From Streptomyces sp. 1222.5 (GTDB lineage Bacteria; Actinomycetota; Actinomycetes; Streptomycetales; Streptomycetaceae): 64,000 nt of DNA. Below are positions 2,995 through 26,303 of this stretch, piece by piece. Positions within the stretch are counted from its first letter, which is position 1; each line of letters starts with the position of its first letter. A model generated the notes under the pieces. That model saw only the letters and a program-made list of their open reading frames with translations, did not search any database and was not told the origin of the DNA. Both the position numbers and the translations under genes were made by a program. The DNA lies in contig NZ_FNSZ01000001.1 in the NCBI RefSeq assembly GCF_900105245.1, positions 6,446,001 through 6,510,000 of the forward strand. The letters run 5' to 3'.

Positions 2995-3017
2995 TTGTCA
3001 GTGGCTCCCCCTAGTCT
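2995..3017 (+). promoter_or_regulatory. PafBC-type (LexA-independent DNA-damage) promoter of uvrA
   Basis: TTGTCAGTG, then exactly eight bases, then TAGTCT. This fits the mycobacterial RecA-NDp / PafBC consensus TTGTCRGTG-N8-TAN3T at every defined position. The expected transcription start is near 3024, about 50 nt upstream of the uvrA start codon. An 11-bp spacing between the hexamers would be non-functional for an ordinary sigma70-type promoter, which supports the activator-dependent reading. Confidence 0.8.
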
Positions 3018-22849: not shown

Positions 22850-23185
22850 GTGGCAAGTGGCAACGCGATCCGAGGAAGCCGGGTCGGTGCGGGGCCGATG
22901 GGCGAGGCCGAGCGCGGCGAGTCCGCGCCGCGTCTGCGCATCTCCTTCTGGTGCTCCAACGGGCACGAGACCCAGCCGAGCTTCGCCAGCGACGCTCAGG
23001 TCCCCGACACCTGGGACTGCCCGCGCTGCGGATTCCCGGCCGGCCAGGACCGGGACAACCCGCCGGACCCGCCGCGCACCGAGCCGTACAAGACGCACCT
23101 CGCGTACGTACGGGAGCGGCGCAGCGACGCGGACGGCGAGGCCATTCTCGCCGAGGCGCTCGCCAAACTGCGGGGCGAGATCTAG
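22850..23185 (+). CDS. RbpA-family RNA polymerase-binding protein (paralogue type)
   Basis: 111 aa, GTG start with GGGAG upstream. Order matches RbpA: basic N-terminal segment (IRGSRVGAGP), a zinc-binding core with C35, H39, C57, C60 (FWCSNGH and WDCPRCG), linker, then the sigma-interaction helix region PYKTHLAYVRERRSDADGEAILAEALAKLR. RbpA binds sigma and RNA polymerase and stabilises open complexes. Sequence and location (after secG rather than the main rbpA locus) suggest this is the second copy, called RbpB in Streptomyces; that name is from memory and not certain. Confidence 0.85.
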   Translation: MASGNAIRGSRVGAGPMGEAERGESAPRLRISFWCSNGHETQPSFASDAQVPDTWDCPRCGFPAGQDRDNPPDPPRTEPYKTHLAYVRERRSDADGEAILAEALAKLRGEI

Positions 23186-23253
23186 AACTTCTCATCGGCC
23201 GGGCGCCTGCGGGCTCCTGGCCGAAGCCGTCTCGTCCCGCCGCGGACGGCCCG

Positions 23254-23276
23254 TTGTCAGTGGTGCCCCCTACGGT
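23254..23276 (+). promoter_or_regulatory. PafBC-type DNA-damage promoter of an MFS exporter gene
   Basis: TTGTCAGTG, eight bases (GTGCCCCC), then TACGGT: a full match to TTGTCRGTG-N8-TAN3T. It is nearly identical to the uvrA promoter at 2995-3017, including the CCCCC in the spacer. Expected transcription start near 23283, ~25 nt before the GTG start of the transporter gene. Confidence 0.78.
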
Positions 23277-23307
23277 TGGCCACAACGGCACATCGTGAGG
23301 GGGACGT

Positions 23308-24576
23308 GTGGCTGCGGTCGAGGGGGCGGGCGAGGGCGCCCCCACCTGGCGCGGGGGATTCGGACGGCTGTGGACGGCAGCGGTGGTCTCCCGGTTCGGG
23401 GACGCGCTGCGGACCGCCGCGCTGCCGCTGCTCGCCGTGCGGCTGACCGACGATCCGCTCGTCGTCGCCTCGGTGACCGCGTGCGGCTATGTGCCCTGGC
23501 TGCTGTTCGGGCTGTTCGGCGGAGCCGTGGCGGACCGCGTCGACCAGCGGCGGGCGATGTGGTCCGTGGACGCGGTACGGGGCTTGCTCGTCGCCGGTTT
23601 CGCCCTCGCCGTCAGCCTGGGGCACGCCTCGATCCCCCTGCTGATCGCGCTGGCCTTCTCGCTCACCGCGCTCCAGACGCTCTTCGACAACGCCGCCACC
23701 GCCCTGCTGCCCTCCCTCGTGCGGAGCGAGGCCCTCGGCGGCGCGAACGCGCGGCTGATGACCGGTCAGCAGTTGGCGGGCGGGCTGCTCGCGGGCCCGT
23801 TCGTGCCCCTGCTGCTGACGGCGGGCGCGTTCATGCCGTTCGCGGCGGACGCGGGCACGTACGCGCTGGCGGCCGTCCTCGTGGCGTCCCTGCGGACCCG
23901 GCCGCCGGAGCGTGCGCCGCGCCCGGCCGGCAGCACCCTGCGCTCGGAGATCGCGGCGGGCCTGCGGGTCCTGTGGCGGGACCGGGCGCTGCGCGCGGTC
24001 TGCGTGGCGACGACCCTGTGCAACGTCGGCATGGGCGCCCTGATCGCCACCCTGGCGCTGCACGTCACCCGCTGGCTGCACGCCGGCGGCACCGGATACG
24101 TAGCCGCCATGACGGCGTACTCGGCCGGCAGCCTGGCCGGCGGTTTCGTCGCCCAGCGGATCGCGCGCCGCACCGGGCGGGTACGGGCCCTGCTGCTCGG
24201 CGGGGCGGTGCAGACCGGCTCGCTGCTGCTCATCGGCTCGGTACGGCACCTGTCCGCCCTGATCGCCGGCATGCTGCTGCTGGGCGCCATGAACATGGTG
24301 TGGAACGTCAACCAGGTCACGTTGATGCAGCAGCGCAGCCCCGCCGCCATGGTGGGCCGCGTCTCCTCCGCGTTCCGCACGGCCTCGACCTCCGGCGCCC
24401 CGCTCGGTGCCCTCCTCGGCGGAGTGGCCGCCCGGGTGTACGGGCTGAACGGGCCGGCCCTGCTCGCCGCCGTCCTCTTCACGCTGGCCGTCACCGCGCT
24501 GATACCGGCGCGCCGTCCGGACGTACCTGTTGTTGGCCGTGAGGACAGCGTCGCGAGCGCTCCTCCCGCGTGGTGA
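23308..24576 (+). CDS. MFS transporter (efflux type)
   Basis: 422 aa, GTG start after GAGGGGG. About twelve hydrophobic segments; N-terminal GFGRLWTAAVVSRFGDALRTAALPLLAV and FGLFGGAVADRVDQRRAMWSVD (the MFS loop 2-3 motif G-x3-D-R-x2-R-R) identify the MFS_3/enterobactin-exporter-like (EntS) group. It probably expels a small molecule; the substrate is unknown. The notable feature is the promoter: a PafBC-type DNA-damage box, shared only with uvrA in this window. pgi follows 74 bp later in the same direction. Confidence 0.88.
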   Translation: MAAVEGAGEGAPTWRGGFGRLWTAAVVSRFGDALRTAALPLLAVRLTDDPLVVASVTACGYVPWLLFGLFGGAVADRVDQRRAMWSVDAVRGLLVAGFALAVSLGHASIPLLIALAFSLTALQTLFDNAATALLPSLVRSEALGGANARLMTGQQLAGGLLAGPFVPLLLTAGAFMPFAADAGTYALAAVLVASLRTRPPERAPRPAGSTLRSEIAAGLRVLWRDRALRAVCVATTLCNVGMGALIATLALHVTRWLHAGGTGYVAAMTAYSAGSLAGGFVAQRIARRTGRVRALLLGGAVQTGSLLLIGSVRHLSALIAGMLLLGAMNMVWNVNQVTLMQQRSPAAMVGRVSSAFRTASTSGAPLGALLGGVAARVYGLNGPALLAAVLFTLAVTALIPARRPDVPVVGREDSVASAPPAW

Positions 24577-24650
24577 TCAACTAGGTTGGGACCGGCAGCG
24601 GGGCAAGGTACGCAGCAGGACAGGTGCAGGAAAGAAGGCTGAGGTCGGAA

Positions 24651-26303
24651 ATGAACGCAGACGGCCGTACCAGGCTCGACCAGACGCCCGAATGGGCCGC
24701 TCTCGCCAAGCACCGCGAAGAATTCGCGGACACCCGTCTGAGGGATCTGTTCGCCGCCGATCCGCAGCGCGGCGACGGGTACACGCTCCAGGTCGGTGAC
24801 CTTTACATCGACTATTCGAAGCACCTCGTCACCGACGAGACGCTGCGGCTGCTGCGCGAGCTGGCCGCCGCGAGGGACGTGTTCGCGTTGCGGGACGCGA
24901 TGTTCCGTGGTGAGCGGATCAATGTGACCGAGAACCGGGCGGTGCTGCACACGGCGTTGCGTGCGCGGCGGGACGCGGTGGTCGAGGTCGATGGTGAGAA
25001 CGTCGTGCCCGCTGTGCATGCCGTGTTGGAGAAGATGGCCGGTTTCGCGGACCGGGTGCGTTCGGGTGAGTGGCGGGGTCATACCGGCCGGCGTATCCGG
25101 AACGTGGTCAACGTCGGGATCGGTGGGTCGGATCTGGGCCCGGCGATGGCCTACGAGGCGCTGCGTGCTTTCACCGACCGTGATCTGACGGTGCGTTTCG
25201 TCTCCAACGTGGACGGTGCGGATCTGCACGAGGCCACGCGGGATCTGGATCCGGCCGAGACGCTGTTCGTGATCGCGTCGAAGACGTTCACCACGATCGA
25301 GACGATCACCAACGCGACGTCCGCCCGTAAGTGGGTGCTGGACGCGCTGGGCGACGAATCGGCGGTGGCGCGGCATTTCGTGGCGCTGTCGACGAACGCC
25401 GAGAAGGTGGCGGAGTTCGGTATCGACGTGGCGAACATGTTCGAGTTCTGGGACTGGGTGGGGGGCCGGTACTCCTACGACTCCGCGATCGGCCTGTCGT
25501 TGATGATCGCGATCGGTCCGGACCGGTTCCGGCAGATGCTCGATGGTTTCCATCTGGTCGACGAGCATTTCCGCACGGCGCCGGCGGAGGCGAACGCGCC
25601 GTTGCTGATGGGTCTGCTGGGGATCTGGTACGGCAACTTCCATGACGCGCAGTCGCATGCGGTGCTGCCGTACTCGCATTACCTGTCGCGGTTCACGGCG
25701 TACCTGCAGCAGCTGGACATGGAGTCCAACGGCAAGTCGGTGCAGCGTGACGGTGAGCCGGTGCACTGGCAGACGGGTCCGGTGGTGTGGGGCACGCCGG
25801 GCACCAACGGGCAGCATGCCTACTACCAGTTGCTCCATCAGGGCACCAAGCTGATCCCGGCGGACTTCATCGGGTTCGCCCGTCCGGTCGGCGAGCTGCG
25901 CGGGGAGCTGAAGGACCAGCATGATCTGCTGATGGCGAACTTCTTCGCGCAGACGCAGGCCCTGGCGTTCGGCAAGACCGCCGAGGAGGTCCGTGCGGAG
26001 GGTGTCGCCGAGGAGCAGGTCGCGCACCGCACGTTCGGCGGCAACCGTCCCACCACCACGATCCTGGCCCGGGAGCTGACCCCCTCGGTCCTCGGTCAGC
26101 TCGTCGCGCTGTACGAGCACAAGGTGTTCGTCCAGGGCGCGGTCTGGAACATCGACTCCTTCGACCAGTGGGGCGTCGAACTCGGCAAGGTCCTCGCCAA
26201 ACGCGTCGAACCCGCCCTCACCGAAGGCGCCGACGTCCCCGGCCTCGATACCTCCACCGAAGCACTCGTCGGCAGGTACCGGGAGCTGCGCGGACGCGGC
26301 TGA
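24651..26303 (+). CDS. pgi: Glucose-6-phosphate isomerase
   Basis: 550 aa from the ATG at 24651; a GTG nine codons earlier is also open. Interconverts glucose 6-phosphate and fructose 6-phosphate, linking the glycolytic genes upstream to the pentose-phosphate operon downstream. [19 protein letters not shown] and [16 protein letters not shown] (sugar-phosphate site), [12 protein letters not shown] and [19 protein letters not shown] (catalytic region) are intact; full-length. Codon use is unusual in the middle (~24880-26060), with many GGT, CAT, TTG and CGT codons, and reverts to C-ending and A-containing codons at the 3' end. Confidence 0.98.

Follow-up and report, generated by a model that had tools for sequence, protein, structure and literature searches.

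The window, the whole stretch of 64,000 nucleotides of Streptomyces sp. 1222.5 analysed here, contains a gene for an MFS transporter between an RbpA-family gene and the phosphoglucose isomerase gene pgi. By eye, gap, pgk and tpiA lie upstream of the locus. The transporter gene is preceded by a motif of the RecA-NDp/PafBC type, of which a sister copy lies elsewhere in the window. The features are listed below by window coordinates.

2995..3017, + strand: sister motif before uvrA, zero-mismatch match
22850..23185, + strand: RbpA-family RNA polymerase-binding protein, upstream neighbour (Pfam)
23195..23224, no strand assigned: inverted repeat past the RbpA-family gene and ahead of the motif, with 13-nt arms and a 4-nt loop (repeat search)
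23254..23262, + strand: PafBC-type upstream element TTGTCAGTG ('-26' region), exact match; the whole motif is exact in 50 out of 56 genus-sample orthologues, own copy counted
23263..23270, + strand: 8-nt spacer GTGCCCCC, well conserved within the genus, divergent in a second genus
23271..23276, + strand: -10-like element TACGGT (TAN3T), consensus match
23282..23284, + strand: predicted transcription start, about 7 nt past the motif, from genomic motif-to-start distances and a conserved A
23297..23304, + strand: probable ribosome-binding site GAGGGGGA, purine-rich (by eye)
23308..24576, + strand: MFS transporter, 422 aa, with a predicted MFS-type helical bundle (Pfam, NCBIfam search, structure model)
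24574..24587, + strand: TGATCAACTAGGTT, overlapping the MFS stop codon; probable -10 region of pgi's own, from the conserved TGATCAAYTAGGTT between the MFS gene and pgi
24651..26303, + strand: phosphoglucose isomerase (pgi), downstream neighbour (Pfam)

The RbpA-family gene is 91-100% identical in those loci of the genus for which an identity was printed. The inverted repeat downstream of it is possibly an end-of-transcript hairpin of this gene; terminator prediction called no terminator there.

The promoter motif in the window and the genome

Positions 23254-23276 read TTGTCAGTGGTGCCCCCTACGGT (motif letters ttgtcagtggtgccccctacggt on direct reading of the window), with 0 mismatches to the consensus TTGTCRGTG-N8-TAN3T. 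The full match claimed in an earlier note on this DNA is thus borne out, as is the likeness to the uvrA promoter that it had pointed out. The motif has the form TTGTCAGTG-N8-TACGGT and ends 31 nt 5' of the GTG start codon (23308) of the transporter gene. Exactly two zero-mismatch copies occur in the whole window, this one and that at 2995-3017, which lies 44 nt 5' of the earliest start codon in the uvrA frame. With as many as 3 mismatches allowed, the window contains 45 copies, compared with a mean of 20.9 and a maximum of 33 in dinucleotide shuffles. Since the shuffle comparison gives counts only at up to 3 mismatches, the genome-wide count is the better test of chance. Here 33 exact motifs were found in the 8.85 Mb genome, compared with 0 for a reversed-pattern control. 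Exact motifs were present in 101 out of 101 genus genomes searched, own genome counted, with 9 to 44 copies each versus 0 to 2 in the control.

A gene was assigned to each of the 33 sites mechanically, as a long, GC3-rich frame with the first in-frame start past the motif, and all 33 picked frames were scanned against Pfam. Repair or replication genes follow 13 of these sites. Those recognized by the Pfam domain of the gene after the exact motif are the following.

L013: RecA
L020: UvrD/PcrA
L023: DnaX
L029: UvrB and O6-methylguanine methyltransferase, both at this locus
L030: RecD2-like helicase
L031: DSHCT helicase
L033: RuvC
L034: MgsA/RarA
L036: uracil-DNA glycosylase
window: UvrA

Also counted in the 13 are the frames after exact motifs at L012, which we take to encode a DinG-type helicase, and at L024, presumably a RadA-type ATPase, named from its architecture. 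At L029 the uvrB and methylguanine methyltransferase genes diverge, with about 2.1 kb between the exact motifs, each 6-7 nt ahead of the start codon assigned. The remaining 20 sites comprise the MFS gene, proteins without Pfam match and several others, and several of them, e.g. those with frames more than 100 nt away, are probably not real targets. An ABC transporter gene (L016) was set aside as a target, its motif lying 328 nt upstream, and is still included in the 33.

Further genes were observed behind exact motifs. An AbiEii-type nucleotidyltransferase frame follows at a distance of 7 nt (L011:1956-2993, minus strand; G000:C1 near 1825895) and may be a toxin-antitoxin-like or defence-like gene within the damage regulon. 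A SUKH-4 immunity-type protein (L026:3136-4296), a DUF4253 protein (L025:2178-2993) and two SWIM-domain proteins (L019:3031-4377; L037:1564-2994) are encoded at other sites. A gene of the mycothiol-S-transferase family (DinB-like; L015:3032-3511) begins 8 nt after an exact motif, and among its 12 other orthologues in 61 genomes the motif was kept in 6 (4 exact, 2 with one mismatch); detoxification genes may hence belong to the regulon. At L248 (genome G013, near C1:2830411) the spacer of the motif resembles that of the MFS promoter, and the product, judged by eye, is presumably of the DUF262/GmrSD type. G013 and G093, which are without the MFS gene and carry promoters with a similar spacer, gave no tblastn match to the MFS protein within the stretch fetched.

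At 20 out of 33 sites the motif ends 6-11 nt before the start codon taken, in 14 of these 6-7 nt. The first-in-frame-start rule favours short distances, yet it leaves the peak at 6-7 nt unaccounted for; mRNAs beginning at the start codon would give such distances. A transcription start about 7 nt past 23276 is consistent with these motif-to-start distances and with a conserved A, which occupies the position 7 nt past the motif in 93% of 95 anchored orthologous promoters. In the window this position (23283) is a C with an A on both sides.

Candidates for the regulator itself are encoded in the window's genome 3' of the Pup ligase gene pafA, where the domain scan identified a pafB-like gene (WYL/WCX protein) and a pafC-like gene (HTH_PafC-WYL-WCX protein). 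Directly 5' of pafA lies a gene that by eye reads like a different MFS protein (L207:63-1322).

Conservation of the motif at exporter orthologues

At an identity of 57% or above, orthologues of the transporter were found in 56 out of 150 genus genomes, own genome counted, and were absent from 94; the 56 include a copy that is split and another truncated at the end of a contig. The motif upstream of these 56 is exact in 50 cases, has one mismatch in 3 and is lost in 3, and is thus present at up to one mismatch in 53. Two of the three motif-less copies have an internal stop and one is a contig-end fragment. Internal stops occur in six copies altogether; the motif still precedes 4 of these (3 exact matches, 1 at one mismatch) and is gone from the other 2. 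In G040 the gene is in two pieces and the motif still stands ahead of it, which makes 5 out of 7 decayed copies with the motif. Named contigs, which overlap with the 150-genome sample in that some genomes are counted in both, carry it at up to one mismatch in 80 out of 80 cases (77 exact, 3 with one mismatch), and in each of these 80 orthologues the reading frame is uninterrupted across the aligned region. One named contig that carries the orthologue is from Streptomyces flaveolus.

Among 27 further loci of a family-wide sample the motif was exact in 23 and had one mismatch in 4. Ten of these loci belong to a second genus, and all 10 have the motif (8 exact, 2 with one mismatch), with a diverged spacer and with no RbpA-family gene found within the flank; in one of them (L206) it lies 171 nt before the inferred MFS start. 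None of 15 paralogues (37-43% identity) has the motif, the best being at 4 mismatches. The search upstream of MFS orthologues that the earlier note had proposed as a check thus found the motif conserved in the genus sample, the named contigs and the second genus.

A conservation profile was derived from 95 of 110 loci, chosen for an exact TTGTCAGTG motif, a distinct sequence and sufficient flank. The 2.0 bits of the core are a selection effect of the exact-motif filter, which leaves flank and spacer values unaffected; flanks reached a mean of 0.37 bits per column compared with 1.57 for the spacer. At 23248-23286 and in the orthologous promoters, conservation within the genus exceeds what the N8 of the consensus would demand, both in the spacer and in the few bases that border the motif on each side. 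Shared descent and further contacts are the only candidate reasons that we can offer for this additional constancy. From the genome-wide motif counts and the conservation at orthologues, the placement of the exporter in the LexA-independent damage regulon, as put forward in the earlier note, is well supported; this comparative evidence is strong and is drawn from sequence.

The transporter, its cargo and competing explanations

The transporter scores above the Pfam gathering score for MFS_1 (91.1 bits) and MFS_3 (84.1 bits). Among the 8 NCBIfam models listed for it, none was reached at its cut-off. The H+ antiporter subfamily TIGR00900 gave 165.3 bits versus a cut-off of 319.6, Tet(V) 52.7 versus 640, and the curated EntS equivalog model 61.9 versus 324. 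The last score rules out membership in EntS; the description 'EntS-like' given earlier therefore holds at the level of the superfamily and fails for EntS itself. With the DHA-type drug exporters (NorA, MdfA and SotB by fold; EntS, Mef(A), Tap and Tet(V) among the models) the protein has fold and superfamily in common, but it reaches no NCBIfam cut-off.

An AlphaFold2 model was built from an alignment of the window protein with 32 of the 54 frames delimited among 80 named loci; the other 26 named loci were dropped, either for want of a stop within the contig or for a stop inside the frame chosen. The model predicts an MFS-type bundle (mean pLDDT 80.8, pTM 0.81). Its best fold match (Foldseek, VIA) is the human glucose-6-phosphate transporter G6PT1/SLC37A4 (Z 41.2, rmsd 2.6, 369 aligned, 16% identity), followed by SotB as the best drug antiporter (Z 38.7) and by other G6PT1 entries (36.2-38.7). 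VMAT2 and others are found at Z 36-39, and NorA and MdfA rank after. Such ranks of a predicted model do not tell the cargo, although a sugar phosphate stays in view since pgi adjoins the MFS gene. A sequence search for solved relatives gave weak matches only (best E 0.013), to chains that bear the name Sugar transport protein 10.

Our main reading, to which we assign a probability of about 0.55, is that a PafBC-dependent promoter drives an exporter that most likely expels DNA-damaging compounds. By analogy with mycobacteria, PafBC would be activated by single-stranded DNA upon DNA damage. It would then let the housekeeping-sigma RNA polymerase start at about 23283, a recognition suggested by the sequence and its conservation, and produce a short-leadered mRNA for the MFS transporter. 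The latter may act as a proton-driven exporter of DNA-damaging small molecules met in soil, so that efflux would be switched on together with repair. In favour of export, drug exporters (NorA, MdfA, SotB) are among the fold matches. Against it stand the restriction of the gene to 56 out of 150 genus genomes with several copies decaying, the 3 out of 56 copies without motif, a motif without the MFS gene at L157, the displaced motif of L206, and G6PT1 (Z 41.2) ranking above the best drug antiporter (38.7). The earlier note had named further possible cargoes. A self-made antibiotic, or a self-resistance pump of a single cluster, is disfavoured because the locus is a conserved glycolytic housekeeping neighbourhood (gap, pgk, tpiA, pgi). 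A damaged nucleotide is probably disfavoured as well, because all cells make such nucleotides, yet 94 out of 150 genus genomes are without the gene. The patchy distribution points to a benefit that depends on the environment and argues against a universal by-product.

The promoter could instead really serve pgi, whereby a damage-induced MFS-pgi unit would redirect sugar phosphates, e.g. to the pentose phosphate pathway, and the transporter would be a passenger or itself a mover of sugar phosphates. Both genera show the MFS-pgi adjacency, and in 9 out of 10 second-genus loci the homologous pgi start follows the MFS stop after 14-55 nt. Terminator prediction called no terminator between the two genes, and some read-through from the MFS gene into pgi is possible. 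G6PT1/SLC37A4 tops both fold lists, in one of them by 2.5 Z over the next family, but this lead is thin, with its other entries interleaving with SotB and VMAT2. A junction test bears on the question: of the 94 genus genomes that lack an orthologue, 30 were read at pgi, and 28 of these had the RbpA-family gene in view. In 24 out of 28 no motif at up to one mismatch lies between the RbpA-family gene and pgi, so that with the MFS gene the motif has gone as well. Three of the four exceptions hold MFS remains, L148 and L149 by tblastn (the latter having a motif with one mismatch) and L152 by eye, where the motif is accompanied only by the tail of the gene. The fourth (L157/L250, from the 5.5-Mb genome G008) has the motif directly before pgi without an MFS gene; it speaks for pgi and stays an unexplained exception. 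Another family of the order, sampled at 11 pgi loci, shows neither MFS gene nor motif within 1.5 kb. Furthermore, TGATCAAYTAGGTT overlaps or follows the MFS stop ahead of pgi in 68 out of 79 named loci (of the remaining 11, 4 are not readable), and many genomes that lack the MFS gene show, by eye, a similar sequence in front of pgi. This conservation in both settings suggests that pgi is probably under its own promoter. Given the junction test, the loci of the other family and TGATCAAYTAGGTT, pgi as the true target is mostly rejected, and we consider it quite improbable.

An exporter of DNA-damaging compounds from outside has also to be weighed against a damage-inducible exporter of an endogenous product, be it damaged nucleosides, oxidised metabolites or mycothiol-dependent detoxification conjugates. 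Conservation in two genera within a housekeeping neighbourhood would suit such a cargo, as would the mycothiol-S-transferase-family gene, which is also in the regulon with the motif conserved in part; the 94 out of 150 genus genomes without the gene are odd for a universal by-product and leave this explanation unlikely. A further reading is a real PafBC promoter in front of an exporter whose cargo has nothing to do with damage; such a promoter may have been inherited by chance and be decaying. The frequent loss of the MFS gene and the motif standing before 4 out of 6 internal-stop copies and the broken copy of G040 agree with this. Against it, the core of the motif persists where the flanks and, for the second genus, also the spacer have diverged, and no frame among the 80 named copies is interrupted within the aligned region; chance inheritance is thus very doubtful. 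A chance match, or use of the motif by another regulator such as LexA, is highly improbable in view of the 33 exact copies versus 0 in the control and the conservation before orthologues. A scan of 23100-23310 for an SOS-type palindrome gave two matches, both with 3 mismatches, and none with fewer; degenerate sites can be missed by such a scan. The LexA sites listed for S. venezuelae in PMC9380542 are indeed degenerate, which leaves some room for LexA. In the whole window, as a weak test, 413 palindrome matches compare with a shuffle mean of 371.8 and a shuffle maximum of 413.

Within the main reading of an exporter under PafBC control, the mycothiol-S-transferase-family gene suggests that enzyme and exporter may form a detoxification branch of the regulon. 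In a wider version of this idea, which we regard as a long shot, PafBC of Streptomyces would run, alongside repair, a 'detoxify and expel' branch with enzyme and exporter co-induced, genotoxins or their thiol conjugates exported, and damage serving as the signal for drug efflux in a genus rich in DNA-active antibiotics.

Relation to known PafBC systems

According to PMC11804915, single-stranded DNA activates PafBC in mycobacteria; PafBC then reprograms the housekeeping polymerase, the helix-turn-helix of PafB sitting on a -26 motif. The mycobacterial PafBC/RecA-NDp regulon resembles the present one in motif and spacing, in pafBC beside pafA and in its repair targets; an MFS exporter as a conserved target was not found described in the passages of PMC8223512 and PMC11804915 covered, and here the membership of an exporter is predicted. 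For Streptomyces, RecA-NDp promoters are known. That of S. rimosus recA is cited in PMC2375139 and PMC5087735. The SIGffRid study of S. coelicolor and S. avermitilis (PMC2375139) reported recA-type motif variants before 67 S. coelicolor genes, mainly of DNA repair; this motif set is related to the exporter's motif, the gene table being in the supplement and outside the comparison. The macrodomain gene SCO6735 of S. coelicolor has a conserved RecA-NDp promoter and is UV-inducible 5-fold (PMC5087735). Like the exporter gene it lies outside classical repair, but it encodes an enzyme and not a transporter.

The absence of a known exporter among the PafBC targets of Streptomyces agrees with the open-licence literature covered, in which none was found described. 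This covers passages of PMC9380542, PMC5087735, PMC2375139, PMC8223512, PMC11804915 and PMC12702967, and in PMC8151990 no transporter words were matched. Since Streptomyces RecA-NDp promoters are known and an exporter target was not found described in these texts, the exporter would be a new member of a known regulon, in which its membership is well supported by comparison of genomes. PMC9380542 remarks that the PafBC motif of M. smegmatis seemed, on an initial search, not to be conserved in S. venezuelae; it adds that for Streptomyces a response independent of RecA/LexA is yet to be shown. The motif in 101 out of 101 genus genomes, among which S. venezuelae was not identified, is at odds with the former remark, and the motif counts speak for such a response.

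The relatives of this strain keep the damage switch of repair genes in front of a pump, which suggests that these bacteria would expel something when their DNA is hurt. If this is true, DNA-damaging agents would raise efflux independently of LexA in the genus that is the main producer of antibiotics. The existence of a PafBC response in Streptomyces becomes directly testable, with the motif sites as a ready list of targets.
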